DNA from: Opitutia bacterium
Lineage (GTDB): Bacteria > Verrucomicrobiota > Verrucomicrobiia > Opitutales > T3Sed10-336
Direction of reading: 5' to 3'
Assembly: GCA_003558065.1 (NCBI GenBank)
Contig: PWMU01000185.1
Location: 1 to 58,146 of the forward strand
DNA: 58,146 nt
Shown here: positions 612 to 26,625 of the stretch, piece by piece
How positions within the stretch are numbered: the first letter of the stretch is position 1
How the letters are laid out: each line of letters begins with the position of its first letter
Made by a program: the position numbers and the translations under genes
The notes under the pieces: model-generated
Database searches by the model: none
Told to the model about the DNA's origin: nothing
What the model saw: the letters and a program-made list of their open reading frames with translations, nothing else

Positions 612-1703
612 ATGAAGAAGATAATTGCGATTAAATCGTTAAGGCAAAATTGCAAAGCGGCATCGTTTAAGGTGCGATCCTGTCTGTCGATGATTGTCCG
701 TTCCGTGGAGCCACATGCCTCGAACACTTTGGAGCGGTCTCTTCTGGTGATGCACGCCCATTATTACCCGAATCCGAAGATTGAGGGGAATGACGTTGAG
801 GTTATCAGGCAGAACTTGCAATGGCTTAAGGAAAACTGCAATGTGGTGCCATTGTCTGAGGGGTTGAGGTGTCTGGAGCGGGGAATGACGCTTCCAAAAC
901 GTGCGGTTTCCATGGTGGTCGATGACGCCACCGCCGGATTCGCCGATCAAGGGCTGCCGCTTTTGGCCGAGGCGGGAATTCCGTATTCGCTGGCCGTAAT
1001 TCCGGGATTTGTTGAGTCCGGAACCCGGGATTACAAGATGGCGCGGCTTATGCACATGGGCGGGCATCACTTTCGCGCGAAGGGAAGAACAGTTTTGAAA
1101 AAGGCAAAGGAATGGTTTCGCCTGAAGGATGAAAAAGAAGAAGGCGTTGACCTCAACACCCTTTTTGTACGTGCCAGGGAGCTGAGTGACGCATCGCTTT
1201 CGGAACTGTTGAACCTCCTCCAGGTGCCGCATCATAATATGATGAACTGGAAGCAACTCAGGCGGTTGACCGGGACGGGGCAGGTGGAGCTGGTGTCGCA
1301 CACAATGTCGCATCCTCATTTGCGGCATGCGAATGAAGACTGGCTTGAGTGGGAGACTCTCGGTGCGAAGCGCGCCCTCGAAGGCGCAACCGGTGAACCG
1401 GTCGATGTTTTTGTCTACCCCTACGGGCACCGGAAAGATGCGAACAGGAAGGTGGTAAATGCGTTGCAGAGGGCGGGGTACGAATACGGTCTGTTGACGC
1501 GAAAAGGGATTACCACCGGAAAGACCTGTCGGTTTCGGATTCCCAGGGTGAACGCGGAGGTGCCGGAGACCGTGTTTCGAAAGCATGCCAGTACAGCCGG
1601 TTGGGCGATCCTTTACGGAAGTCGACCGGCTGACGAAAATCCGATTGAATGCCGATCGCGTGGCAGGGGCGCCGAGCATTCAAACGGGGTGAATCAACCC
1701 TGA
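612..1703 (+). CDS. Polysaccharide deacetylase (NodB-homology) family protein
   Basis: A 363-residue protein with the NodB fold (PF01522 type), which removes N- or O-acyl groups from polysaccharides using a metal. Seen directly: VVDDATAGF near residue 100, where the paired Asp of the usual FDDG motif sits; SHTMSHPHL near residue 230, giving the two metal-binding His (H-x3-H); and VYPYG near residue 265, another family motif. No convincing signal peptide is seen, so it may act in the cytoplasm or be anchored by partners. It precedes an SGNH hydrolase on the same strand, a typical pairing in exopolysaccharide loci. A long antisense frame over the same bases is treated as a shadow. Confidence 0.85.
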   Translation: MKKIIAIKSLRQNCKAASFKVRSCLSMIVRSVEPHASNTLERSLLVMHAHYYPNPKIEGNDVEVIRQNLQWLKENCNVVPLSEGLRCLERGMTLPKRAVSMVVDDATAGFADQGLPLLAEAGIPYSLAVIPGFVESGTRDYKMARLMHMGGHHFRAKGRTVLKKAKEWFRLKDEKEEGVDLNTLFVRARELSDASLSELLNLLQVPHHNMMNWKQLRRLTGTGQVELVSHTMSHPHLRHANEDWLEWETLGAKRALEGATGEPVDVFVYPYGHRKDANRKVVNALQRAGYEYGLLTRKGITTGKTCRFRIPRVNAEVPETVFRKHASTAGWAILYGSRPADENPIECRSRGRGAEHSNGVNQP

Positions 1704-1752
1704 TGCTGCAAACCCGTTTTGCCAAAGGGTGTGTAAGAAAAGAGATGGGTTG

Positions 1753-3120
1753 ATGTTTCAAAGGACTAATTATGATTTTATTATGAGAGATTTATTTCGT
1801 TTGACATTCGGTATGTGCAGGATTTTGGGACTGGGAGTGTCTATATTTTTATCTGCCGGGAATAGCGTGGCCACAAAAGCCGAAAACGTACTCGTTTTCG
1901 GCGACAGTTTGTCCGATGAATATGCATTTATGCCGTTCAGCGAATCGGACAACCCGGATTGGCGGGCGCGGAACTGGGTGGAGATTCTTGCCGAGGTACG
2001 GGAGGAAGATTTGGGTTTTGGAGAGTACCGCGAGGATCCGTGGGATGCTGTCCGCAGGGAGGGGTTCGAGTACAATTGGGCGGTTCCCGGAATGACGGCG
2101 GCACAGTTGCGAATGTTGTTGTCGGATCCGGAGTTTGCGGGTGAACGAGAGATGTTGGACGAGCAGATTGACGGTCATGTGGACCGGGCGGTGGTCATGA
2201 TCGGCGTGAATGACTTTTACAACACGTACAGCTCGATTTACGGAGGAAGTGACGGTGGGGCGCTGGGTGAACGGGTAAACGAAGATATTGAGTTTATTGT
2301 GAGCTACCTTAAGTCGGTGAATGGTCGGCTTGCGATTGCCGTCGCGAACATTCCGGATCCGGGGGCCACACCTCGGGTTGTTGAGCGCTACCCCGACCCG
2401 GCTGGACGGAAGCGGGTGGAGGGGGCGATTCGCGAGGCCAATGAGGGGATTCAGACGATGGTCGGGGAGAAGGGATTGGCGCTGATCGATCTTTTCTCGG
2501 TTTCCATCCGCTTAATTGAAGGAACGCCTTTTCTGGTTGACGGACTGGACATTCTTGAACGCGGGCATCCGGATAACCATCCGAATTTCCTATTTACCCG
2601 GGATGACTTTCATCCCGGAACGGTGGCTCATGGGGTTTATGCGAACCAGGTGATCGAAGCCATTAATCTTGAGTGGGAGGGGGGAGTCGAGTCAATCGAG
2701 GAAGCGTCAATACTTGCGCTCGCCGGACTGCCTGTGGAGGAGTCTTTCGAGGAATGGATTAGGCATTTTAGAGTAGGCGATAGCGGGCTTGACGCGACGC
2801 CGGGAGGTGACGGTATTCCCAATGCGGTAAAGTATGTTCTCGGGCTGAATCCGGAGCGAAACGAGAATGGACGATTTCCGGAGGCGGAGACGGTGTTCAA
2901 CGAGAACGGGGAGATGACGCTGGAAGTGACCTACCGGCCCCGGCGTGACGAGAACGGACGGTTTTCTCTGAGCCCCAGGTATTCGGAGGATTTTTTCAAC
3001 TGGGAAGACGTGCCTCCCCAACAAAAGGAGGTTGGCGGGGACGGATCGATTCGGGCGTTCATGCCGCTGGCAAACGGACGCGGGTTCATGAGATTCAGGG
3101 TAATTATTGAAGAACCCTGA
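1753..3120 (+). CDS. Secreted SGNH/GDSL hydrolase with C-terminal DGIPN module
   Basis: An esterase/lipase-type SGNH hydrolase. Block I (FGDSLSD, catalytic Ser) is near residue 50, block III (GVNDF, Asn) near 150, and block V (DDFHPG, catalytic Asp and His) near 284. The N terminus has a hydrophobic stretch (ILGLGVSIFLSAG) before the mature part, so export is likely. After the catalytic domain, from about residue 320, comes a module with GGDGIPNAVKYVLGLNP and the ending GFMRFRV. The same module closes two other secreted proteins in this window. Starts are possible at GTG 1729, ATG 1753 and ATG 1783; none has a strong Shine-Dalgarno, and 1783 would leave the tightest signal peptide. The substrate is unknown. 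Confidence 0.82.
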   Translation: MFQRTNYDFIMRDLFRLTFGMCRILGLGVSIFLSAGNSVATKAENVLVFGDSLSDEYAFMPFSESDNPDWRARNWVEILAEVREEDLGFGEYREDPWDAVRREGFEYNWAVPGMTAAQLRMLLSDPEFAGEREMLDEQIDGHVDRAVVMIGVNDFYNTYSSIYGGSDGGALGERVNEDIEFIVSYLKSVNGRLAIAVANIPDPGATPRVVERYPDPAGRKRVEGAIREANEGIQTMVGEKGLALIDLFSVSIRLIEGTPFLVDGLDILERGHPDNHPNFLFTRDDFHPGTVAHGVYANQVIEAINLEWEGGVESIEEASILALAGLPVEESFEEWIRHFRVGDSGLDATPGGDGIPNAVKYVLGLNPERNENGRFPEAETVFNENGEMTLEVTYRPRRDENGRFSLSPRYSEDFFNWEDVPPQQKEVGGDGSIRAFMPLANGRGFMRFRVIIEEP

Positions 3121-3169
3121 CGCCAACCGTTGAGAAAGGAAGAGTGCGGCGAGCGCCTTCTCCGTGTTC

Positions 3170-4318
3170 CTAAAGGTATCGCAGCGGAAGGTCGCCCTCG
3201 ATCAGGGAGGGGTCCCAGGTGCCGGGGTCCGCAAAATGCTCCTGGAGTTCGGGCAGGCGGGAGCCGTAGTAGAAATGGGAAAAGCCCCTTGTGACCCGGT
3301 AAAGGCCGAGATCGGCGAGCAGTTTTTGTTTCTCCAGGCTCAGACCGGTTATCTCGATACTGTTGATCCCGTGCTCCATCGCGTCCTTGGCGATCGAAGC
3401 AAGGAGCGAGGTCACGGCGGACGCGGTTTCATCCAGAAGCTGGAGATCGGTGAGCGAGATCAGACGGGATTTGGGATCGAAATGGGTGATCGCGAAACCG
3501 CGGATATCCTCGTCCCGGTGAAGCAGGTAGAGGTGGGCGTCACCGGAGGAAAGTTTCGACCCCAGGCGCCACCGCAAGGTTTCCGTGTCCCGGAATGCCA
3601 GCAACCGATTCGGATACTGCTCGATAAGGTCGCGCCAGAAGGTGTCAAAGCGATCGTCGACCACGGTTTCTGACGTTACTTTCCATTCCGGAGCGATCTT
3701 CAGGCCGAAGCGTCCCCTGGAAAGGACGGAATCCCGGATGCGGTAGAGTGAAGCGAGGCCGAGGTGGCAGGGACCCTTGACGTGAGGGATCTTCAGCTTC
3801 CGAAGTGGCCGGGCCGGGTGGTGGCGGTAATTGAGAACGAGGTAGTGGCGGTATTGAGCGCCCGGCGGAGCAACGAACGTCGGCTTCCCGTAGGCCTCGA
3901 GAATCCGCTTGGTTTTGCTTGAGGCGGTCGTGGTCGGGAGGAGGTCGACGTTCGGTTGGCCCAGGTACCTCCGCATAAGCGAAAGGGAATGCGAGCGGAA
4001 TCCTTCGTCGACGTACCAGCCGCTGGCGACGGCGGCGGTGAGCGTCCGTTTTCCGAGCTTGTAGCGGTCGGGGATATTGAGCACGGCCCCCACGATCGTT
4101 CCGTGGTCCTCCAGCACCCAGCCGATCGGCCAAGGCTGATCGACACCTTTCATGGCGGGATTTTCGTCCCACAGACGGCGCCATTTTTCGTAAAAAGAGG
4201 GCTGGTTTGGGGATTCGGGCGAGTGGACGGCCGTAAAAATACCGGCCTGTCGCCATAAGGCGTCCAAGCCGGAATAATCCATAAAAGTCGCTTCACGTAT
4301 GGCAGTGGATTTTTCCAT
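3170..4318 (-). CDS. GNAT-like acyltransferase
   Basis: A protein of about 382 residues. The N-terminal half starts like a GNAT acetyltransferase (AIREATFMDYSGLDALW, then WVLEDHGTIVGAVLNIP, the usual strand pair), and the C-terminal half has a second similar stretch (HRDEDIRGFAITHF, then LLASIAKDAMEHGINSIEIT), so it may be a tandem GNAT fold. It probably transfers an acyl group to an amine, possibly a nucleotide sugar given the neighbours; the substrate cannot be read. I place the start at the internal Met (4318), because the upstream extension to 4456 is AT-rich and does not look like this family. It is transcribed against the flanking genes. Confidence 0.68.
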   Translation of the reverse strand: MEKSTAIREATFMDYSGLDALWRQAGIFTAVHSPESPNQPSFYEKWRRLWDENPAMKGVDQPWPIGWVLEDHGTIVGAVLNIPDRYKLGKRTLTAAVASGWYVDEGFRSHSLSLMRRYLGQPNVDLLPTTTASSKTKRILEAYGKPTFVAPPGAQYRHYLVLNYRHHPARPLRKLKIPHVKGPCHLGLASLYRIRDSVLSRGRFGLKIAPEWKVTSETVVDDRFDTFWRDLIEQYPNRLLAFRDTETLRWRLGSKLSSGDAHLYLLHRDEDIRGFAITHFDPKSRLISLTDLQLLDETASAVTSLLASIAKDAMEHGINSIEITGLSLEKQKLLADLGLYRVTRGFSHFYYGSRLPELQEHFADPGTWDPSLIEGDLPLRYL

Positions 4319-4536
4319 GAAAATATATTCCCTGATTGTCGCCCTAGATCCTAAAAAAAACGAAATCAATTTCGAATTGCAAAATGCGGATAAAAAGTGG
4401 TTTGGTTTGCTAAAAAATGGAAATTTTGAAAGTAGTTTGGTGTCAGGCGATTCCAATGCAGAGAGTGATAAAATCTATTGCCCCTTAAATATTCTGGCAT
4501 ACAAGCCTATAAGCTCAAACACGATTCAGTAAAATA

Positions 4537-15485: not shown

Positions 15486-16763
15486 GTGGACAATAAGATG
15501 GAAGTTGATGACAACGAATCCATCATGAACGCCCGCCTCGATACCGAGCTCCGGATCCTCTTGCTCTGCAGCCGCACGGAGCTGGGAAGCGACCAGGTGG
15601 TCGAGCTGGAGAGGCTGGTGGCCGAGGGGCCGAACTGGGAACGCTTGCTGGACCTTGCCGGGTTTCACCGGCTGATTCCCTTTCTGTATTGGAATTTCAA
15701 GCGTTGCATTCCCGACGGAGTTCCCGCCAATGTCCGCGATCGCCTGGCGGCGGGGTTCCTGCGGAACCAGCAACGGGTGATGGGGCTGACCGCGGAGTTA
15801 TTGCGGCTGGCGGACCGGATGAAAGAGGAGGGAGTCCCGTACCTTCCCTTCAAGGGACCCGTCCTGGCGAGCACCGCCTATGGCAATGTGGCCCTTCGGC
15901 CGACGGGCGACCTCGATATCCTGGTGAAACCGGCGGATGCCCCGGCGGCGTTGGCCATCCTGAAGGAATGCGGGTATTACGTGGTCATCGAGGGGGCGAC
16001 GGGGGCCGTCGCGGATGCTCGCCAGGAGCGCGCGGTGGGGCGTTTTCATTACAACTACAACCTCTTCAATCACGAGAACGGCATTACGGTGGAACTCCAC
16101 ACCCGCCTTCTGCCGGTGAAGCTGCCGCTGGGACCCGGTCCGGAGGAAGCGATCGCAGGGGCGTCGGTTTGCCGGCTTGCGGGACGTGAGGTGTTGACTC
16201 TGAATTTCTACGAGAACCTCGTCTTTCTCTGCGTGCACGGGGCCAAGCACGCCTGGGATCGGTTGGAATGGATTGTTGCTTTGGCGGAATCCATTCGGCG
16301 GACGGATGAGGTTGATGAGGAGAAACTCCTGCGTGTGGCGCGGAAGAGGGAAGCGGAAGTCGCCCTCCTCCTCGGGGTGCTCCTGGCCGTCCGGCTTCTC
16401 GGCCTTCCCGGGATGCCGCGCGTTCAGCGTGAAACCGAGGAGTACCCGGTTGTCGAGGATTTGTTCGAGGAAGTGGTCAACCGGTTGGATTATCACCGCC
16501 GCGTCGAATCGGAACGACAGGCGGAGCGCCGTTTCCAGGAGGGTTTGTGTCACAGCTTCCGAAGCAGACTCAGGTGGTCGTTTTATTCCCAGTTTCAACC
16601 GGGCCGCAACGATTTCAGGTGGATGCCGTGGACGTTTTCCTGGACGGTCTCGTATTACGTGATCAGGCAGGTGCGCCTCTTGTACAGGCGGCTGAGGCGC
16701 TGGCTGAAATATGTTTACCAGTTTGTCACCGGGGCGAGGGGCGTGCCGAAAACCGGCCGGTAA
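15486..16763 (+). CDS. Lasso-cluster nucleotidyltransferase (PF14907-like)
   Basis: A 425-residue protein. Residues about 115-145 read LPFKGPVLASTAYGN, then ALRPTGDLDILV, the hallmark of the PF14907 nucleotidyltransferase group: the nucleotide-binding loop plus the DxD that binds metal. Members are often found with RiPP clusters; with lasso kinases they are thought to modify the phosphorylated peptide further. The C terminus is basic and coiled (YRRLRRWLKYVYQ). The frame opens at GTG 15486; an ATG follows at 15498. It converges on the HPr-kinase-like gene across 29 bases, so it is on the opposite strand to the rest of the cluster but clearly belongs with it. What it transfers, and to what, cannot be read. 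Confidence 0.78.
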   Translation: MDNKMEVDDNESIMNARLDTELRILLLCSRTELGSDQVVELERLVAEGPNWERLLDLAGFHRLIPFLYWNFKRCIPDGVPANVRDRLAAGFLRNQQRVMGLTAELLRLADRMKEEGVPYLPFKGPVLASTAYGNVALRPTGDLDILVKPADAPAALAILKECGYYVVIEGATGAVADARQERAVGRFHYNYNLFNHENGITVELHTRLLPVKLPLGPGPEEAIAGASVCRLAGREVLTLNFYENLVFLCVHGAKHAWDRLEWIVALAESIRRTDEVDEEKLLRVARKREAEVALLLGVLLAVRLLGLPGMPRVQRETEEYPVVEDLFEEVVNRLDYHRRVESERQAERRFQEGLCHSFRSRLRWSFYSQFQPGRNDFRWMPWTFSWTVSYYVIRQVRLLYRRLRRWLKYVYQFVTGARGVPKTGR

Positions 16764-16792: not shown

Positions 16793-17734
16793 TCAACCGA
16801 GGTCGGCCCTGACGGCCCGCAGGACTTCGGGCAGCCTGTCGTAGCCGCCGGGGTAGCGAAGGCGTGTGACCCGCAGGATGCGTACCGTTCGGGCGAGCCG
16901 TTGCAGACGGGGAACCCGCATGTCGGTCGTGTCCACGATCTCCGTAATGAACGAGTTTTTCAGCAGTTCCTTAAGGCTTTCAGCCTGTGAGAGAGGAACA
17001 AGTTGAACGGGGGTATCGGTTTCGGCATCGGTCCGTTCGAGGATGTAGATGCCGCCGACAGGAAGGGGGTTGCCGGTGAACGTTCCGAGGTCGGCGACCG
17101 GAACCCCGAGTTTCTGAAAGTCCTGGTGAACCTTTTCATACCCGTCCGTCGATCCGGCAAAGTAGTGGGCCTGTTCGGGGGTCAGTTTGATTTGGGGGTA
17201 GCCGGGGCGGCAGAAAGCGGCCGTGTCCCGGATTTCAAGCGCCGCTATGTCATCAGCCACCAGCGGCACGCCCGCGCACAGCATCGATGCGGCCAAGGTG
17301 CTTTTCCCGGCCCCCGAATCGCCGATGAGAATCGCCGCCCGGCCGTCGAAGTCCAGGGAGGCTCCGTGAATTGGAGAGACGCCCGCGCGTTCAAGCGTAT
17401 AGGCAAGAACGTGACCGAGCAAACAGATCTCCACCATATAGGCGATTCTCGGTGCGAGCAAATCACACTCGATCGAGCCCGGACTGATAAAAAAATCCGC
17501 GATCCGGGGAAACCGCATGATTTCGGTGTCACTATGGCGAAAGAGCTGGACGGCGCTTTCGCCATACTTGTTTTTGGAGTCGCTGCAGTAAATCCGATCG
17601 GCCCCGTTCAGGTTCCGGGCGGTCTCCACCGGCTTGCAGCTAAACGCAAGGTCCGGGGTCTCATCGGATTGCACCATCGGAGTCCTGAAAGCATAATCCG
17701 TTTCGACGGTAAATCCGAATAGGTTGTACGGCAT
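16793..17734 (-). CDS. HPr-kinase-like lasso peptide kinase
   Basis: A 313-residue protein. The core has a Walker A loop (IGDSGAGKSTLA, residues about 135-147), the region VPLVADDIAAL where HPr kinase keeps its catalytic/metal Asp pair, and an N terminus (LFGFTVETDYAF) typical of the stand-alone HPr-kinase-like proteins in RiPP clusters. Known relatives phosphorylate Ser near the C terminus of lasso precursors. Here the precursor ends in S-S-G-Q, so the target would be an internal Ser rather than a C-terminal one. The start codon follows a 207-base gap after the PRTase-PqqD gene on the same strand. That gap carries a perfect TATAAT box (minus strand, 17869-17874) with no good -35, and short heptamer arrays at both ends. 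Confidence 0.8.
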   Translation of the reverse strand: MPYNLFGFTVETDYAFRTPMVQSDETPDLAFSCKPVETARNLNGADRIYCSDSKNKYGESAVQLFRHSDTEIMRFPRIADFFISPGSIECDLLAPRIAYMVEICLLGHVLAYTLERAGVSPIHGASLDFDGRAAILIGDSGAGKSTLAASMLCAGVPLVADDIAALEIRDTAAFCRPGYPQIKLTPEQAHYFAGSTDGYEKVHQDFQKLGVPVADLGTFTGNPLPVGGIYILERTDAETDTPVQLVPLSQAESLKELLKNSFITEIVDTTDMRVPRLQRLARTVRILRVTRLRYPGGYDRLPEVLRAVRADLG

Positions 17735-17899: not shown

Positions 17900-17967
17900 C
17901 AACGAATAACAAGTAACGAGTAACCAATCACGAGTCACGAGTCACCGGTCACCGGTCACGAACAACC
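17900..17967. repeat. Heptamer array (ACGARTA-type), short and degenerate
   Basis: About nine degenerate units of the 7-base repeat ACGA(A/G)T(A/C) run from the gap into the last codons of the PRTase-PqqD gene, so they encode its final residues. A short run in the opposite orientation (TGATTCGTGATATGTGATCC) lies at 17739-17758, just upstream of the kinase start. The arrangement is a small version of the one at 23539-24074. Confidence 0.7.
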
Positions 17968-19141
17968 CCCTCTTCTCCAGATCTTCGACGAATCCTGTCA
18001 AGTCGGCTTCAAGGCGTCCGGGTTCCACTTCGTACTGTTGAGCCAGTGAAGTGGCGGCAGGGGGGATCTCGCCGAAGCGGACCAGCGCTTCCCACATAGC
18101 GGCCGCAACGTCGTCGAACAGGAAGCAGTCGGGGTCGGGGGGAAGGGCCACCGCGAGTTTTCCGTTTCCCTGGCGGGCGTAGATGGCGTTGTCGGCCGGC
18201 TTCAGGGGGCCTTTGGGGCGCGGAAGAATCCGGAGAGACGGTGCGTCGGTGGGACGGTTCGACGGTGCCTCGGTAACGCGGTGTTTGAGGCAGCGTTCCG
18301 GCGGAAGGAATTTCCAGCCCGGTTCGATGGCTTCGGTCGCGCCATTCCAGAAGGAACTTTCCGGCTCGCTCCAGGCGAAGCAAAGGTATTCCGGGTCGCC
18401 GATCCAGTAGGCCTGGCGGCCGAGCCGGCGGGTCCAGTTTTCCTTCCAGACCGGATACCCGTCGCCGTGGATTTTCGGGGCGAGATCGGTCAGATCCCGC
18501 GCACTGACACAATCCAGCACACGCGGCTCCCGCTCGTTGATGGTCTGCCTGAGCCCCTCATGCGAGTAAAGAGGCGTGTAGATGATTTCGTTTCCGTGCA
18601 GGCCCGGAAGCACCTGCCCGAACCTCACCCCGGACAGGGCACAATCGTCCACCACCACCACCGGACGTTCAGGGGAGGCGTCATACCCAAGCGAGGCCGA
18701 CGGGAGGTCCAGGGCATAGCCGAGCATTCCCAGGACCAGGGTTCCGCCGCGAGGGATCGGAACGTAGGAAAACCTCCGAAGCTCGTCGTGCCCGTACCGG
18801 GTTTTGAGTTGGGCGGCAAGGACTTCGCAATCCTGCTCCGCCTGCCGGTAATCAACGTAAATCGCCCCGGCGGCCGCCCGCTTCAATTGGGAGGCCAGGC
18901 TGGCGATCCGTTGCAGGTCGCTTTCATCGAACGTTCCGAATGCGGCCAGGATGGTTTCAGCGGGCGCGTGTTTGAGAACGAACGTGAGGTCCTGGCGCGA
19001 CGCCCAGCGGGGATCGCGGAGCACCACCGACGTGAGCGCTTCCAGGGCCCGCGCCGTCGAATCGTACCCCATAAGCGAACGGAGACTTTCATTGCCGGCG
19101 TCCGTGCGGGCAATGACGCAGTTCGTAACCGCTGTATCCAT
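17942..19141 (-). CDS. Phosphoribosyltransferase-fold protein fused to a PqqD/RRE-like domain
   Basis: A 399-residue protein. Residues about 125-145 (FSYVPIPRGGTLVLGMLGYAL) and 160-172 (PVVVVDDCALSGVRF) match the type I PRTase fold. The second is the PRPP-binding loop, with paired Asp after a hydrophobic strand. Residues about 335-395 (DCFLFDDVAAAMWEALVRFGEIPPAA, here cut in two: DCFLFDDVAAAMWEAL, VRFGEIPPAA; then LEADLTGFVEDLEKRGLFV) look like a PqqD fold, the leader-binding RRE of RiPP systems. A stand-alone PqqD exists elsewhere in the cluster, so this would be a second recognition domain, riding on an enzyme. The natural reading is a leader-guided tailoring enzyme using PRPP or a similar donor; this is inference. 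The gene lies just after the precursor terminator. No good Shine-Dalgarno is seen at the start. Confidence 0.72.
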   Translation of the reverse strand: MDTAVTNCVIARTDAGNESLRSLMGYDSTARALEALTSVVLRDPRWASRQDLTFVLKHAPAETILAAFGTFDESDLQRIASLASQLKRAAAGAIYVDYRQAEQDCEVLAAQLKTRYGHDELRRFSYVPIPRGGTLVLGMLGYALDLPSASLGYDASPERPVVVVDDCALSGVRFGQVLPGLHGNEIIYTPLYSHEGLRQTINEREPRVLDCVSARDLTDLAPKIHGDGYPVWKENWTRRLGRQAYWIGDPEYLCFAWSEPESSFWNGATEAIEPGWKFLPPERCLKHRVTEAPSNRPTDAPSLRILPRPKGPLKPADNAIYARQGNGKLAVALPPDPDCFLFDDVAAAMWEALVRFGEIPPAATSLAQQYEVEPGRLEADLTGFVEDLEKRGLFVTGDR

Positions 19142-19173: not shown

Positions 19174-19235
19174 AAAAAAAAACTCCCGCCGGAGTTTGAC
19201 GAATGAAGTCACTCGTCAAACCGCCGGCGGGAGTT
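19174..19235 (-). terminator. Strong intrinsic terminator after the lasso precursor
   Basis: Read on the minus strand, a long stem pairs AACTCCCGCCGG with CCGGCGGGAGTT and continues with TTTGACGA/TCGTCAAA, with only a small mismatch between the two blocks. It is followed at once by nine T. It starts 13 bases after the precursor stop codon and lies before the PRTase-PqqD gene. Such a terminator would keep precursor message short and abundant, with some read-through to the tailoring genes. Confidence 0.88.
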
Positions 19236-19248
19236 ACTGAACCGCGGG

Positions 19249-19404
19249 TTATTGACCGCTCGAGTGCGTGACGCTGCCGCCTTTGGCATCGGCACCACTT
19301 TGAGTTGTTCCCGTATGGGTCAGATCCGCGACGGTTCCCCATTTGTGGAGAACCGGTGCGCTGTAAGACTTCCTTACGGAAGCTGTTGCTTTTTCTTTTG
19401 TCAT
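19249..19404 (-). CDS. Lasso peptide precursor (51 aa)
   Basis: A 51-residue peptide with a strong ribosome site (AAGGAGAG, 4 bases before the ATG). The leader carries Y14, P17, L19, G23, L28 and T29 with the exact spacing Y-x2-P-x-L-x3-G-x4-L-T that the PqqD partner reads in lasso systems. Taking T29 as position -2 gives a core from T31 to Q51 with the ring acceptor D39 at position 9. Taking G32 as first residue puts D39 at position 8. D39 is the only acidic residue after the leader, so the ring closure is forced either way. The tail (A-K-G-G-S-V-T-H-S-S-G-Q) is rich in Gly/Ser and has no aromatic or Arg plug residue. It has its own promoter and terminator, and lies between the cyclase genes and the tailoring genes. 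Confidence 0.9.
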   Translation of the reverse strand: MTKEKATASVRKSYSAPVLHKWGTVADLTHTGTTQSGADAKGGSVTHSSGQ

Positions 19405-19649: not shown

Positions 19650-21545
19650 CTACCAATACCGCCGAAGCCACAGTTCGAGTGTCAGGAACCACCAGAGGTC
19701 GTAGGACAACGGGCGGTCCCCGAGGGCGGCTTCATAGTCGTCGCGCAATCGCCTTTCGTCAACGAAACCGAACTCGGCCGCGCGGGTGTCCGTCAGGAGA
19801 TCCCGCACCTGTTGGCGCGCCCGGTCGTAGACACCCCGTCTGAATAGCGGAGTGGGGTCGGCCTTCCCGGCACCGCTGTCGAGGTTGGTGAGGCTGTCCG
19901 GAAGCATCTCCTCGAAGCTCTTCCGGGTCAGCCGCTTGAAATCAGTGATCCCATGAACCGAGTATTGTGGCATCGAGACGACGTATTCGGCCACCCGGCG
20001 ATCGCTCCAGGGATCGGCGTAAGCGATGCCGTGGGCCGCCTGATGCCTTTCAAGGAGAGTCAGTCTCCGGGTGCAAATGGATGAAAAGATCATGCGGCCT
20101 CGCGCGCGGCGGGCCGGGTTTCGAATGGAGGCCGCCGGATTGAAGTCATCGAGATCCGGCTTCAGAGACGTCCGTTTGACAAACTCCGGGCGGAGGTAGG
20201 GCGGGAGTTTCAATCCGGCGGCGGTACGCCGGCGCGCGGTTCCCCGATAGCCCGCCGCCTCGAGCAGTGGCAGCATCAGGCGGCGTTTTGCCGTCGCGTA
20301 CAGGGACCGGTTGCTTTCTCTCGCGTGAGCCGACAATTCCCGCAGCAACGTGGGGAAGCGACCGGCACTCAACAGGCCGGGGCAATCGTAGACCCATTGA
20401 TTCGTAACGGCGTCGCCGCGCTCCCCGGTCATCATCAGGCGGACGCCATCCTTTCGAGCGCGGCTCAGTACTTGATCGATCAGGGTGTGGTAATAAAAGA
20501 GGTAAGGGTCGTCCATGTCGGGGATGTGGGCCTCGGGACGGGCCAGGGGCCAGGCCTGGTCCCCGGGAACTTCGACCAGGGGCATGGCGGAACGGGCGGC
20601 GATTTCGCGGCTGACGGTGCGTTCGTCGCAGCTGGAGAGCTCGTCGAAAGCCCAGGTGTAGGCGCGCAGGTCCGGATCGGGGCCGGATTCTCCCCGCTGC
20701 TTCAGTCGGCCGGCGGCGGCTGCGATGCTGCCGGAATCCAGCCCGCCGCTCAGCGAGAGCGCCGCTGGTCCGGAGCTTCGCAGCCGGCACCGAACCGCTT
20801 CCAGGAAAACGTCACGAAAGCCCGCGTAGACGTCGCGCTCGCGGCCCCGGATGGGCTCGGAAGGGATCTCACGGATGCGGCTGCGAACAGGGGATCCGTT
20901 TCTGAAGACGATCGACTCCCCGGGAATCACCTGATGAATGCCCTCGAAGAACGAGGAATCATGGGACGTGGGCACGCCGGCCATGTGGGCGGCGACCGTG
21001 GTTTCATTGAGACGTTTGGGCACTCCCGGAACCGCAAGGATCTGTTTGGCCTCGGTGGCGAACAGGACACGGCGGGGCTCCAGGCGATAGTAAAGCGTGC
21101 GGACTCCCATGATGTCGCGGGCCAGCTCCAGGCTTTCCCTTCGGGGATCGTGGAGGGCGTAAACGAAGTCTCCGAGAATGTGCGCGGCGTAGCGATCGCG
21201 GTCGGCCAGGTACGCCGAGAGAAGCAGTTCCGGATCGGCGGGGGTTCGATCGGAACCGAGGAGGTCGCTGACCTGCCGGGCGAATTTTCCGAGCAGCTCG
21301 TCCCGGTTGTCGAGCCGCAGGTCGGCCACGAGCCGGACGCCCGAGGGGGGGTGTGCGACGGGTTGCCCCTCCCCGATCGACTCGGGTGTCAGTTCGAGCC
21401 CGAGGTAGCCCAGCCCAAGATTTTCGGATACGAAGTGCCGGGACGAATCCGGGCCGCGGTGGGGCGCGGCGTTCATCATGGCCACAAGGCTCGATTCGGC
21501 GACGGGCTTTCCGTCGAAGTGAAAAATACCGCAGATTCCGCTCAT
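19650..21545 (-). CDS. Lasso cyclase 1, asparagine-synthetase-like
   Basis: A 631-residue homologue of asparagine synthetase B. The first 190 or so residues are the glutamine-amidotransferase class II fold (MSGICGIFHFDG, PHRGPDSS). The synthetase half carries the ATP-pyrophosphatase loop SLSGGLDSGS near residue 265. Lasso cyclases use this site to activate the ring Asp/Glu as an AMP ester and close the macrolactam with the core N terminus. The Cys that in true AsnB is residue 2 is here residue 5 after MSGI, so glutamine hydrolysis is doubtful, as in other lasso cyclases. It follows the second cyclase gene by 53 bases on the same strand. Alternative: one of the two could serve another substrate. 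Confidence 0.85.
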   Translation of the reverse strand: MSGICGIFHFDGKPVAESSLVAMMNAAPHRGPDSSRHFVSENLGLGYLGLELTPESIGEGQPVAHPPSGVRLVADLRLDNRDELLGKFARQVSDLLGSDRTPADPELLLSAYLADRDRYAAHILGDFVYALHDPRRESLELARDIMGVRTLYYRLEPRRVLFATEAKQILAVPGVPKRLNETTVAAHMAGVPTSHDSSFFEGIHQVIPGESIVFRNGSPVRSRIREIPSEPIRGRERDVYAGFRDVFLEAVRCRLRSSGPAALSLSGGLDSGSIAAAAGRLKQRGESGPDPDLRAYTWAFDELSSCDERTVSREIAARSAMPLVEVPGDQAWPLARPEAHIPDMDDPYLFYYHTLIDQVLSRARKDGVRLMMTGERGDAVTNQWVYDCPGLLSAGRFPTLLRELSAHARESNRSLYATAKRRLMLPLLEAAGYRGTARRRTAAGLKLPPYLRPEFVKRTSLKPDLDDFNPAASIRNPARRARGRMIFSSICTRRLTLLERHQAAHGIAYADPWSDRRVAEYVVSMPQYSVHGITDFKRLTRKSFEEMLPDSLTNLDSGAGKADPTPLFRRGVYDRARQQVRDLLTDTRAAEFGFVDERRLRDDYEAALGDRPLSYDLWWFLTLELWLRRYW

Positions 21546-21598
21546 AAATGGACCCGTGATTTTGGGACTGGATACACGCTGCGATCGTCAGGCCCCCA

Positions 21599-23536
21599 TT
21601 ACGATCCCTTCCAGTACCGGCGCAGCCACATCTCCAGCGACAGCACGGGCCAAATCGGGAACCGGAGGTCGCTTCCGTCGAGAAACTCGTGCGTCCGCTC
21701 CAGGAGTACCGCTTCGTTCACGTAATCCCGGCGTGCCAGTTCGCTCCCGGTGAAAAGGTCGAGGACCAGGCCGCGGGCTTCCTTCCGGAGGCCTTTGTGG
21801 TAAAAGGGTTCCAGTGAAACCTTGTGCGCTTTGAGCAGGGCTTCCTGCGGAATCACCCCATTCATGGCCGTCCGCAGGAGGCATTTGGGAGCGCTCAGAC
21901 GACTCACGACGGTTTGGGGGATGGACAGGATGTACTCAACGAGCCGCCGGTCGCTGAAGGGATCGGCGAATCCGATCCCATGGCGTGCGTTGGTGCGTTC
22001 GGACCAGACCATTCCCTTCATGTGCATGGGAACAAAAATCGCCCCGCATCGGGCGCGTGCCGAGCGATGCCGCAGCCCGCCACAGGGGTCGACCGGAGGC
22101 GGCGCTTCATGGGCGCGGATGAAACGCTCGTTCAAGTGCGGCGGGCAGCTCGGTTTTCGCCCCCCGGGAGCGGGGTGGGCCGGTTGGGCCCGCGCCAGAA
22201 CGTGCCGAAGCAGGTCTTTTACGACCGGCTTCAAGAGGCGCCGTTTCAGGGTGGGGAGCAAGCCGTAGCGGCGCTGGAGAAGACGGAGCTCCCGGTAAAA
22301 GGCCGCCGGCTTTCCCCGCGCCAGCAATTGCGGCAGGTCGGTGATCGATTCTCCCAGAAGCAGGTCTCCCCGGTCCCCGGAAAGCAACAACCCGACCCCG
22401 TCACCGCCGGCCGCCGCGAGCACCCGGTCCAGCACACATTGAAACTCTCCGAAATACGGTTCGTCTTCGTCGGGTCCATGATCCGGGTAACCCGCCAGCG
22501 GCCAGGCATCGTCCGCGGGAACACCGGTTGCCGGAATGCCATACCGTCCGGTAATCCGGCCGCTGTTCTCCCGCTCGTCACACCCGACGAGATCCGGATC
22601 GGAAAACGCGAAGCTGTAGGACCGGAATTCGCCCCCCGGGGCAAGGGTGCCGCGTTCCCCGAGCAGACCGGCCATGGCGGCCACGCTGCCCGAATCCATT
22701 CCTCCGCTCAAGGAGATGCCGACAGGTTTCTTCGAGCGCATGCGGCAGGCGACGGCCTCGCTGAAGAGTTCGCGGAGATGCTCCGCGTAGTCCCGCTCTT
22801 TTCTAAAGCGAGTGCGCGCGGTCGGATCGATCCGCCAGAACGCGGAGGTCTCGATCCCGCTTTCCGAAATCACCAGGGTGCGACCCGCTTCCAGCTGGTC
22901 GATTCCTTCGTAGAAGGTCGTTCCCAGGGAATGGTTCGTGCTTGTCAAATGCTCGGCGACCGCCGTCTCGTTGATGCGGCGTTCCACACCCGGAAGAGCG
23001 AGGATCTGTTTCACTTCGGAAGCGAAAACGATCCTCCCGTCACGCACCCTGTAATAAAGCGGTCGCATCGCCATCGGGTCGCGGGCGAGTTGCAGCCGCT
23101 GGGAACGGGGATCCCAGATGGCCAGGGCGAAATCGCCCAGGAGATGTTCGCAGCAGGCGACTCCCCATTTCAGGTAGGCCAGCAGCAGCATTTCGGCATC
23201 CGTGGGGGACCGTTCCGGCGACGAAGCACCCCCGGAAAACTCGCGCCGGTCCCGCTCGATAGCTTCCTCTCCGAGCTTCGCGACCAACTCGGACCGGTTG
23301 TCCAGGCGCAGGCTCGCCACCGCCAGGACGCCTGTGGGGCGGTGCACAACCGGCTGCACCTCGCCGATGCTTTCCGGCGTGATTTCGAGCGAGAGGTAGC
23401 CGAAGGCCGCGTTGCGGCTTTCGGCCGTGAAAACCCCGTCGGCTCCCCGGTGCGGCGCCGCCTTCAGCATGGGTTGAAGGTCCTCCTCCCGAACCGCCTC
23501 TCCCCCCCGGTCTACAATGCCGCAAATTCCGCTCAT
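21599..23536 (-). CDS. Lasso cyclase 2, asparagine-synthetase-like
   Basis: A 645-residue paralogue of the adjacent cyclase, with the same architecture: amidotransferase-like N terminus (MSGICGIVDRGG, PHRGADGV) and an intact ATP-pyrophosphatase loop SLSGGMDSGS near residue 275. The Pro of the RGPD motif is Ala here. The two proteins are clearly divergent, so this is not a recent duplication. Two cyclases for a single visible precursor is unusual; they may form a heteromer, act on different peptides, or one may amidate or add a second bond. The start codon is followed upstream, after two bases, by a long heptamer array, so any promoter would have to lie inside or beyond repeats. Confidence 0.85.
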   Translation of the reverse strand: MSGICGIVDRGGEAVREEDLQPMLKAAPHRGADGVFTAESRNAAFGYLSLEITPESIGEVQPVVHRPTGVLAVASLRLDNRSELVAKLGEEAIERDRREFSGGASSPERSPTDAEMLLLAYLKWGVACCEHLLGDFALAIWDPRSQRLQLARDPMAMRPLYYRVRDGRIVFASEVKQILALPGVERRINETAVAEHLTSTNHSLGTTFYEGIDQLEAGRTLVISESGIETSAFWRIDPTARTRFRKERDYAEHLRELFSEAVACRMRSKKPVGISLSGGMDSGSVAAMAGLLGERGTLAPGGEFRSYSFAFSDPDLVGCDERENSGRITGRYGIPATGVPADDAWPLAGYPDHGPDEDEPYFGEFQCVLDRVLAAAGGDGVGLLLSGDRGDLLLGESITDLPQLLARGKPAAFYRELRLLQRRYGLLPTLKRRLLKPVVKDLLRHVLARAQPAHPAPGGRKPSCPPHLNERFIRAHEAPPPVDPCGGLRHRSARARCGAIFVPMHMKGMVWSERTNARHGIGFADPFSDRRLVEYILSIPQTVVSRLSAPKCLLRTAMNGVIPQEALLKAHKVSLEPFYHKGLRKEARGLVLDLFTGSELARRDYVNEAVLLERTHEFLDGSDLRFPIWPVLSLEMWLRRYWKGS

Positions 23537-23538
23537 GG

Positions 23539-23697
23539 GATTCGTTACTCGTTATTCGTTACTCGTTATTCGTTACTCGTTATTCGTTATTCGTTACTCG
23601 TTATTCGTTATTCGTTATTCGTGATTCGTGATTCGTTATTCGTTATTCGTTATTCGTTGATCGTTATTCGTTGATCGTTGATCGGTGATTCGTGATC
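23539..23697. repeat. Heptamer array 1 (ATTCGTT orientation)
   Basis: About 21 head-to-tail copies of a 7-base unit, mostly ATTCGTT or ACTCGTT on the plus strand, degenerating to GATCGTT and GATTCGTG at the right end. It begins 2 bases from the start codon of cyclase 2. Together with array 2 in the opposite orientation it forms a large imperfect inverted repeat around a spacer of about 200 bp. Confidence 0.92.
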
Positions 23698-23748
23698 GGG
23701 TTGAAGCGGCAAAGCCGTTGTTCCGGGTTGTCCACAGATTGATGCATA

Positions 23749-23814: not shown

Positions 23815-23900
23815 TGCACCTGCGCGAATCCCTTCAATAGCCGCCTTCTCTAACAAAACACAAAGAACCAGGGACCAAAAACAAGCAACAGACAACAACC

Positions 23901-24074
23901 AATCACGAATAACGAATAACGAGTAACGAATAACGAGTAACGAATAACGAATAACGAATAACGAGTAACGAATAACGAATAACGAATCACGAATAACGAG
24001 TAACGAATAACGAATAACGAATAACGAATAACGAGTAACGAGTAACGAATAACGAATAACGAGTAACGAACAAC
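23901..24074. repeat. Heptamer array 2 (AACGAAT orientation)
   Basis: About 24 units of the 7-base repeat ACGAATA/ACGAGTA (some ACGAATC) on the plus strand, the inverse complement of array 1. It ends 2 bases from the stop codon of the ABC exporter gene. There are no spacers, so it is a microsatellite and not a CRISPR array. Confidence 0.92.
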
Positions 24075-24075
24075 C

Positions 24076-25896
24076 TCACGCCTCCGCCATCCGGCGGAAA
24101 TGGGAGTTGTCGGTCGCCAGCTCGTCGAAGGTGCCGGTTGCGGCGATCCGGCTGTCTTCGACCAGGACGATCCTGTCGCAGCGGCGAATCGTGGAGAGGC
24201 GATGGGCGATCATGATGATCGTCTTGCGTCCCGCGAGGGATTCCACCGCTTCGACGATGACCCTTTCGGTTTCCGTGTCGACCGAGCTGGTGGCTTCGTC
24301 GAGGACAATAACGTCCGGGTCGTGGTAGAGGGCGCGGGCGATACCGATGCGTTGCCGCTGGCCGCCGCTCAGGCGGATGCCGCGTTCGCCGACTTCGGTA
24401 TCGTAGCCGGCGGGAAGCTCCGTTTCGATGAACGTGTCGATATTCGCAAGGCGGGCGGCGTCGCGGATGCGTGCTTCGTCGATGGTCTCGGGGGCGATCC
24501 CGTAGGCGATATTCCGACGGACCGAATCGTCGGCGAGGTAGATTTCCTGGGGAACGTAGCCGCAGTTGCGTTGCCAGTCGCTGCGGTTGGTTTCGTCGAC
24601 GGGGATCCCGTCGACGCGCATCTCACCGGCCTGGGGTTCGAGAAGTCCGAGCAGGATGTCCGCCAGGGTCGTCTTGCCCGCCCCGGACTTCCCGCACAGG
24701 CCGATCCTCGAGCGTGCGGGCAGGGTGAGGTTCACCTCGTGAACCGCCGGGCGTTCGCTCTTGGGGTAGGAATAGGTGACCGCCCGAAGTTCGAGTTCCC
24801 GTTTGAGGGGCAGACGGACGGAACGTCCTGATTCCGAACCGCCCTGCGCCCACTGGAGCGCCGGGGTGGATCCGCCGGTCAGGAGGGGCGCGCATTCCGA
24901 ATACACTTTGTCGACGCTTTCCCTGTAATAGCGCAGGCGGCTGAAACAGCTGTAAAAGCCCTGAATGGCCGGAAGGAGCCGGTAGCCTGCCACGCCGAAC
25001 ACCCCGAGTACCGGAAGCGCGCCGGCTACGCCGTCGTGTTGGTGCAGAAGAATCAGCGCGACCCCGATCATGCCGGCGAACGCGAGGGTTTCGACTACGT
25101 GTTTGGGGAGACTGGAGTACAGAGCCGCCCGTTCCTGGTGGCGGAAGTACCGTTGGGAGGGCTCCTCGAAGGCACGAACGAAGTAGTCTTCCCGGCGGAG
25201 AACCTTCAATTCCTTGAGTGTGCCGAAGGCTTCGCTGACCGCTTTATAGCGGAGATTGTCGCATTCCGCCCGTTTCTTTCCGGCTTCACTCAGCTTTCTC
25301 CGCAGAAGGAAATAAATACCCGTGTAGCTCGCCGCGAAGAAGAATCCGGCGCCGAGCGCAATCCAGGGGCTCACGACGATCAACAGCAGGCTCAATCCGG
25401 TTATGGTGAGCAGGCGGGTTATTCCGTTCATGACCGTCCCGATGAAGCCGCCGGTGACCAGGTAGACTTCCGAGAAAATGTTGCGCAGGAATTCCGAAGT
25501 ATTGCGGTTGAGGTAATACGTGTAGGGGCGCAGCAGGTAGCTGCGCAGGAGCAGCGTGGACAGGCAGGTGTTCAGCTTGGCGGAGAATCGTGCGGCAAGG
25601 ATGCTGTGAAGAGCCCCGATGAGATTGGCAAGCACCACCGCGCCGATCACCAGGGCGCCAAGAGCGATGAGCAACGAGGTGTGGTCGGGCGGTTCCCAGA
25701 TGCGGTGGAGTAGCTGCATCGCGCGGCCTCCTTCCAGTCTCCCGGCGTCGGAGATCGCCTGAAGAAAGGGAAGGATCGAGCCCACCATCACCAATTGGGA
25801 CAGCGCGTTCAGGTTCATGAGCGTGAACAGGCCGAACAATCCCCAGCGGTAGTTTCGGGGCAGCAGCTCCCAGCACTTTTGAATGGCAGTAAACAT
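24076..25896 (-). CDS. Lasso-cluster ABC exporter
   Basis: A 606-residue half-transporter: an N-terminal membrane domain with several hydrophobic helices (VVLANLIGALHSILAARF; ITGLSLLLIVVSPWIALGAG) and a C-terminal ATPase with Walker A GKSGAGKTTLA (about residue 400), signature LSGGQRQRIGIARAL (about 508), Walker B VIVLDEATSSVD (about 530) and the H-loop AHRLST. It would work as a homodimer and export the mature peptide, giving self-immunity as the D protein of lasso systems. No N-terminal C39 peptidase is present, which fits leader removal by the B2 protein. It starts 17 bases after the B2 gene, so the two are surely co-transcribed. Confidence 0.88.
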   Translation of the reverse strand: MFTAIQKCWELLPRNYRWGLFGLFTLMNLNALSQLVMVGSILPFLQAISDAGRLEGGRAMQLLHRIWEPPDHTSLLIALGALVIGAVVLANLIGALHSILAARFSAKLNTCLSTLLLRSYLLRPYTYYLNRNTSEFLRNIFSEVYLVTGGFIGTVMNGITRLLTITGLSLLLIVVSPWIALGAGFFFAASYTGIYFLLRRKLSEAGKKRAECDNLRYKAVSEAFGTLKELKVLRREDYFVRAFEEPSQRYFRHQERAALYSSLPKHVVETLAFAGMIGVALILLHQHDGVAGALPVLGVFGVAGYRLLPAIQGFYSCFSRLRYYRESVDKVYSECAPLLTGGSTPALQWAQGGSESGRSVRLPLKRELELRAVTYSYPKSERPAVHEVNLTLPARSRIGLCGKSGAGKTTLADILLGLLEPQAGEMRVDGIPVDETNRSDWQRNCGYVPQEIYLADDSVRRNIAYGIAPETIDEARIRDAARLANIDTFIETELPAGYDTEVGERGIRLSGGQRQRIGIARALYHDPDVIVLDEATSSVDTETERVIVEAVESLAGRKTIIMIAHRLSTIRRCDRIVLVEDSRIAATGTFDELATDNSHFRRMAEA

Positions 25897-25913: not shown

Positions 25914-26336
25914 CTAGGGATTCCGGAAATCACTGTATTCGTCCCGTGGATTTCCTCCGACCACGATTTGACCGTTCACCTCGACCCAGGCGTGAGCCTG
26001 GAACTGCCCGTCCACCTTCCTGGCTCCGAAGCGCAGGGTTGACGGATGTCCCCGCCGCGCCAGAACTACCTGGGCGGCGAGGCCCTGGGTCAGGCAGGAA
26101 CCCAACGGCACCCACCGGGCGGCACGCGAAACGTACCGGCCGATGAGTTCCGGTTCCATGCGGGAAGCGTGCACTCGCGTTCGTTTCCTTGCTTCGTATC
26201 CGGAAACGGAATGGTGAACTCTCCGGAACGGCACCAGCCACAGGGCCAGTCGAGCGATCCACAGAACCAGCAGCGATTCCAGGAATAATCGCTTCTCGGC
26301 AGGCGGGACAGCCCGCCAATTAGCCATCCGACCCAT
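25914..26336 (-). CDS. Lasso leader peptidase B2 (transglutaminase-like)
   Basis: A 140-residue protein of the B2 family, which cuts the leader from the precursor. The catalytic Cys is in LGSCLTQGLAAQ (C81) and the His in AHAWVEVNG (H115). The third residue of the triad, an Asp some 12-14 residues after the His, is not evident; G127-G128-N129 stand there, and the nearest acid is D132. A hydrophobic segment near residues 17-37 (FLESLLVLWIARLALWLV) may contact the membrane. The gene overlaps the end of the PqqD gene by 17 bases, which implies coupled translation. The start with a GAGGTG site was chosen; a second ATG follows 9 bases on. Confidence 0.86.
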   Translation of the reverse strand: MGRMANWRAVPPAEKRLFLESLLVLWIARLALWLVPFRRVHHSVSGYEARKRTRVHASRMEPELIGRYVSRAARWVPLGSCLTQGLAAQVVLARRGHPSTLRFGARKVDGQFQAHAWVEVNGQIVVGGNPRDEYSDFRNP

Positions 26337-26625
26337 CGCGCACCTCGATCAACTGGGCCTGTGCCAGCTCCTCCAGCAGGGCGACCAGGTCGCGTCCCGC
26401 AGCTTCCTCGCTTATGTCGAACTCGCTCAACAGAGCCTTTCGAAGGTCCGCCACGCGGATCGGCTTCTGTAAATAGTCCCAGAGAAAAGCCCCGGTCTCA
26501 TTCAGCCCGTAATACAATCCGTCGGGCAGGTGCAGGACCGCCGCCTCACCGGAGAGGTCGCAGGTAAGCTGATCCGAAACCGCGGCTACCACGGTATCGT
26601 CTGTGAGGTCTTCAGGGAATTTCAT
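26320..26625 (-). CDS. PqqD-family RiPP recognition protein (B1)
   Basis: A 101-residue stand-alone PqqD fold. The pattern VLHLPDGLYYGLNETGAFLW, then ADLRKALLSEFDI, then VALLEELAQAQLIEV is typical of the lasso B1/RRE protein, which binds the precursor leader (Tyr, Pro, Leu, Gly positions) and delivers it to B2 and the cyclase. It is the first gene of the processing operon and overlaps B2. The promoter just upstream is listed separately. Confidence 0.88.
   Translation of the reverse strand: MKFPEDLTDDTVVAAVSDQLTCDLSGEAAVLHLPDGLYYGLNETGAFLWDYLQKPIRVADLRKALLSEFDISEEAAGRDLVALLEELAQAQLIEVRDGSDG

Follow-up and report, generated by a model that had tools for sequence, protein, structure and literature searches.

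An apparently new type of lasso peptide cluster, marked by the fusion of a phosphoribosyltransferase (PRTase) fold to a lasso-B1-type PqqD/RRE domain, is present in the Opitutia bacterium DNA analysed here (the window, the whole stretch of 58,146 nucleotides). The PRTase-PqqD gene (17942..19141, minus strand) runs from an ATG at 19141 to a stop at 17942 and encodes 399 aa with no internal stops, at the coordinates given by the first-pass annotation, which named no strand. Judging from its sequence, a structural model and its constant place beside lasso precursor genes, the protein very probably represents a type of peptide-modifying enzyme not described before, the chemistry of which is predicted here, and a role in lasso maturation is highly likely. 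The architecture itself is practically certain. It comprises an optional N-terminal domain (residues ~1-90), a type I PRTase fold (residues ~91-285) with the PPi loop PRGG at 130-133 and the PRPP loop DDCALSG at 165-171, and a linker followed by the PqqD/RRE domain at the C terminus (residues ~311-399). These features are not due to chance, since 12 homologues with 29-53% identity to the window protein retain the motifs.

The gene is surrounded by a complete lasso cluster, all on the minus strand, with a precursor carrying a YxxPxLxxxGxxxxxT leader, cyclase, B1 and B2. The stand-alone B1 (PqqD) gene at 26320..26625, which is the separate PqqD reported earlier, is followed by the B2 leader peptidase (25914..26336; Transglut_core3, NF033537), an ABC exporter (24076..25896) and two cyclases of the Asn-synthase type (21599..23536 and 19650..21545). 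The 51-aa precursor (19249..19404) has below-cut-off matches to lasso leader models; its leader ends in ...YSAPVLHKWGTVADLTH, and its core is predicted to form the ring TGTTQSGAD, closed on Asp9, with the tail AKGGSVTHSSGQ. Between the precursor and the PRTase-PqqD gene lies a strong terminator-like hairpin with a T run (19181..19235, minus strand; -44.3 kcal/mol, z -8.3), a possible attenuator that would yield more precursor mRNA than enzyme mRNA. On the other side of the fusion gene are its partner, an HprK-like kinase gene (16793..17734, minus strand) on which the first-pass annotation was silent, and, convergent with it, an optional NTP_transf_5 nucleotidyltransferase gene (15486..16763, plus strand). 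A 7-base unit (ATTCGTT / AACGAAT type) is repeated in tandem at 23540-23698 and 23897-24074, on either side of the gap that separates the first cyclase gene from the ABC exporter gene, and a related degenerate array (17901-17961) overlaps the PRTase-PqqD gene at its 3′-end. Two tandem cyclases with a single precursor in view were observed both in the window (19650-23536) and in its relative G002 (L004 4833-8683).

Homologues were found in 12 genomes in total, three in one Opitutales family and nine in one class of Acidobacteriota (Thermoanaerobaculia). The two relatives in the window genome's own family share 53% and 45% identity with the window protein. The genomes searched, in overlapping samples, comprised 8 from the own family, 373 from the order, 384 from the class and 319 from the phylum of the window, as well as 396 from the phylum Acidobacteriota and 149 from Thermoanaerobaculia. 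A scan of the genome-contig collection with the single sequence detected no relatives, while a search of it with a 3-sequence alignment recovered three loci, the first acidobacterial one among them; no relative was detected in the plasmid and viral-contig collections. Weak matches in the class samples (L012 and L013, residues 3-87) were rejected as they are located in unrelated genes, and L105 was rejected as a homologue because it encodes a PqqD protein only. The first-pass annotation had linked the protein to lasso precursors, and the search for the same fusion bears this out: each of the 12 copies of the PRTase-PqqD gene, across two phyla, has a lasso precursor gene as its neighbour, and no homologue was seen outside a lasso locus among the genomes searched. 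A cyclase was found in 11 of these loci, the exception being L034, where B2 is present. Stand-alone B1 genes were seen in the window, L022, L033, L035, L036 and L037, contig ends or divergence limiting the view elsewhere.

Each PRTase locus also carries an HprK-like kinase gene, which follows the PRTase gene in the same orientation in 11 of the 12; in L034 it lies ~4.5 kb away on the opposite strand, and in L005 a ~3 kb ORF separates it from the PRTase gene. The P-loop GK[ST] and the following DD acidic pair are kept in every one of these kinases, which group only loosely in HprK trees. NTP_transf_5 genes are present in several PRTase loci but were not found in G002, and are therefore not obligatory. 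As controls we used 40 loci with a B2 match but without the PRTase, from the same acidobacterial class. Several of these carry an HprK-like gene (e.g., L099, L104, L112, L120, L124, and L127), so that the PRTase gene was always seen with a kinase gene but not vice versa. The existence of same-class lasso loci without the PRTase also makes the PRTase gene an accessory one, as tailoring genes are. Thermoanaerobaculia appears to be a lasso-rich class, with a B2 match in 59 of 147 genomes.

Several loci showed further peculiarities. By eye, we assigned a sulfotransferase-like ORF adjoining the B2 gene in the PRTase-positive L034 (7198-8142), a transposase-like ORF inserted between precursor and cyclase in L004 (2943-4673), and a spermidine-synthase-like ORF that separates the PRTase gene of L005 from its kinase gene (1404-4442). 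In L011 (1487-3520), the cyclase ORF continues at its C-terminal end into the precursor in the same frame and without a stop; either the two are fused or the precursor is translated from an internal start. Near-identical lasso precursors with Cys-rich tails occur in tandem in L106 (5461 and 5695), a locus without the PRTase.

The C-terminal domain, previously described as PqqD-like, is recognised directly. PF05402 (PqqD) matches residues 333-393 of the window protein (E 6.7e-9, 36.4 bits vs. a cut-off of 23.4), and a profile of the 12 homologues, in all of which the PqqD domain is fused to the PRTase fold, retrieves two lasso RREs of known structure, TbiB1 (2.7e-12) and TfuB1 (8.7e-8). An AlphaFold2 (AF2) model of the window protein built from the alignment of 12 sequences (pLDDT 89.4, pTM 0.83) aligns with the leader-bound B1 structures 6jx3 (Z 12.8) and 5v1v (Z 12.7) in VIA-align; an earlier model from a 3-sequence alignment was discarded as poor (pLDDT 46). 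The N-terminal ~90 residues form a further domain that is missing in five of the 12 homologues.

For the PRTase-fold domain, sequence comparison alone is no proof of the assignment, and the fold is assigned from the AF2 model together with structure comparison. Residues 1-310 of the window sequence, taken singly, gave no Pfam, NCBIfam, or PDB sequence match. Residues 91-284 of the model, in contrast, match PRTases or PRTase-like proteins in VIA-align, in agreement with the fold proposed earlier for the first part of the protein. The best match is the Sulfolobus solfataricus HGXPRT (Z 14.2, rmsd 2.2 Å over 125 residues), and the E. coli XGPRT scores Z 13.4. Foldseek with the same model ranked PRTases and TbiB1 at the top, with no single match under E 0.001. 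When a profile of the PRTase core was compared with PDB sequences, seven of the best eight matches were PRTases or PRTase-like proteins, each weak on its own (best E 0.061); wherever alignments were printed, PRGG and DD stood in register. Five of the 12 homologues matched PF00156 (Pribosyltran) at E<=1, the best score of those listed (15.4 bits) falling short of the gathering score of 26.3 bits; we therefore call the window protein PRTase-fold and do not file it in PF00156. The PRTase-CE family (PF24390), to whose name we could trace no source paper, matched one homologue at E 0.00029, yet below its cut-off. Alignment with hhalign to PRTases from the same genomes yielded no score of significance; thin template alignments may be the reason.

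The PRPP loop reported earlier as VVVVDDCALSG is present at residues 161-171. Across the 12 homologues, P130-R-G-G, D165-D166-C167, G171, and F255-x-W257-x-E259-P260 are invariant, and residue 170 is Ser or Thr, so that [ST]G is kept throughout; we take these motifs to correspond to the PPi loop, PRPP loop and hood of PRTases. In the PRPP loop, the position that we assign, from knowledge of the 6-oxopurine PRTase family, to the general base is Leu or Ile in all 12 homologues in place of the Asp of a DDxxDTG-type loop, and the last loop residue is Arg, with Gln in L037 only. With these replacements, donor binding and catalysis may be altered. A PRPP side that is kept alongside a different acceptor side is the pattern expected for a non-purine acceptor, as read from the sequences, and says nothing on catalysis itself. 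From the same motifs we consider catalytic use of PRPP somewhat favoured. It is unlikely, yet worth more weight than any other alternative, that the PRTase fold has no transferase activity and serves as a scaffold or as a module binding a ligand (PRPP, a nucleotide, or ppGpp), the protein then acting as an adaptor that binds the leader and offers the precursor to the HprK-like kinase, perhaps according to nucleotide state. The constant company of the kinase gene would fit such an adaptor, as would the unkept acceptor-side positions of purine PRTases and the presence of the PRTase-fold regulators PyrR and a ppGpp-bound Neisseria gonorrhoeae protein (5vog) among the structural matches. However, an invariant PPi loop and acidic PRPP-loop pair at 29-53% identity go beyond what a scaffold needs, and the kinase genes in PRTase-less lasso loci imply that such kinases generally manage without a PRTase.

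The precursors offer a clue to the acceptor. With cleavage and ring sites predicted from the leader pattern in all 12 cases, the cores (ring/tail) are TGTTQSGAD/AKGGSVTHSSGQ in the window and, elsewhere, TGTTTSGAD/AKGGSVASQGE, TGGTSPGND/GKDGSVGHSKGG, SLSTVTPGD/TFGASFEN, GGGNEGPID/AIFAGSSVGT, GTFNGTQD/GFLSGTIGS, FSGNDGLD/AVFSGTSVTT, GGSGIEYD/IDNGATKAV, GPFGALTD/APFNGSRNAE, SATGTMLD/GAPFMATGVNP, SGLGTMAD/GVPFMATGVNP, and NILNGTQD/GFFSGTEPT. A Ser or Thr is found 5-7 residues past the ring Asp in 12/12 PRTase-positive precursors vs. 2/7 controls (Fisher 0.0018), and the motif [GA][ST] at the same distance in 12/12 vs. 0/7 (2e-5), p-values that overstate the case: the pattern emerged on inspection of the sequences, several of which are closely related, and the controls number only seven. 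An acceptor at this tail Ser/Thr is accordingly a tentative reading of the sequences, which we hold with less confidence than the use of PRPP.

Nitrogen acceptors are the norm for PRTases, and Asn occurs in 10 of the 12 cores, both of which would suit phosphoribosylation at a nitrogen (on Asn, Gln, Lys or His, at the N terminus, or in the leader) instead of at a hydroxyl. Such N-phosphoribosylation is nevertheless improbable: nitrogen nucleophiles are scattered over the cores (N in 10, K in 4, Q in 4, H in 2, and R in 1), no N- or S-nucleophile type is common to all 12 cores as Ser and Thr are, and the core N terminus is consumed by the macrolactam.

Our preferred reading, to which we give an even chance, is that of a leader-guided enzyme that uses PRPP to place phosphoribose on the precursor, probably close to the tail Ser/Thr, and acts together with the kinase. 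The PqqD domain, being of the lasso-B1 type, would bind the leader of the uncleaved precursor; the PRTase-fold domain would then bind PRPP, transfer 5-phosphoribose to the core, and release pyrophosphate, presumably before the precursor is cleaved and folded. The HprK-like kinase would act on the same precursor tail, and the acceptor, the weakest step of the proposal, would be either the hydroxyl of the tail Ser/Thr, 5-7 residues past the ring Asp, or a phosphate placed there by the kinase. The complete scheme, PRPP-dependent RiPP tailoring with the kinase that leaves phosphoribose on the tail Ser/Thr as a glycoside or via a phosphodiester, is correspondingly more doubtful than its parts, and we know of no described ribosomal peptide with phosphoribose attached at such a site. 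That the PRTase instead converts PRPP into a free nucleotide or phosphoribosyl compound, to be joined to the peptide later by the kinase or the NTP_transf_5 enzyme, is highly improbable: NTP_transf_5 genes do occur in several of the 12 loci, the fold is closest to purine PRTases, and the pseudomycoidin nucleotidyltransferase puts hexoses on a phosphorylated tail (PMC8498205), but NTP_transf_5 is missing from G002, the purine general-base position is not kept, and a small substrate requires no leader-binding domain.

Should PRPP be used on the peptide, this would be a new class of chemistry for lasso peptides and RiPPs, with activated ribose phosphate as the donor; it would also show a PRTase fold turned to a peptide as acceptor, and provide a leader-guided tool for phosphoribose addition. 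The small gene set (precursor, PRTase-PqqD, HprK-like kinase, cyclase, and B1/B2) and the spread of the family across two phyla make the proposal directly amenable to tests in a laboratory host. The open-access literature searched, where absence is no proof, yielded no PRTase from a lasso or RiPP pathway, nor any enzyme of this build, as the first-pass annotation had also supposed.

Among known systems, the 6-oxopurine PRTases (S. solfataricus HGXPRT, 5bqp/4z1o; E. coli XGPRT, 1nul/1a95) share with PRTase-PqqD the fold, the RGG PPi loop, the acidic pair of the PRPP loop and the hood strand region, at a sequence identity of about 14-17% in structural alignments. PRTase-PqqD differs from them in the Leu/Ile for the general-base Asp, the Arg at the end of the PRPP loop, the extra N-terminal domain and the fused PqqD. 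TbiB1 (5v1u, 5v1v) and TfuB1 (6jx3) resemble its C terminus over the whole domain (structural Z about 12.8), but are stand-alone proteins, whereas the RRE of the window forms the C-terminal part of a PRTase-fold protein in a cluster that also has a separate B1 gene. In butirosin-type O-phosphoribosylation, a PRTase of a natural-product pathway attaches ribose phosphate to a hydroxyl; the acceptor there is an aminoglycoside, while that proposed for PRTase-PqqD is a ribosomal peptide. Pseudomycoidin-type lasso clusters have HprK-like and nucleotidyltransferase genes, as the window does, and several of the lasso tailoring enzymes tested act on the linear precursor (PMC8498205). The kinases described there modify a C-terminal Ser (PMC8498205), whereas the window precursor ends in Gln and, across the 12 precursors, one ends in Ser and three in Thr. 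Lasso clusters, lasso RREs, and tail tailoring by HprK-like kinases and nucleotidyltransferases are already known (PMC8498205); pseudomycoidin-type systems have no PRTase described, and the window locus, with its PRTase-fold RRE fusion, has one.
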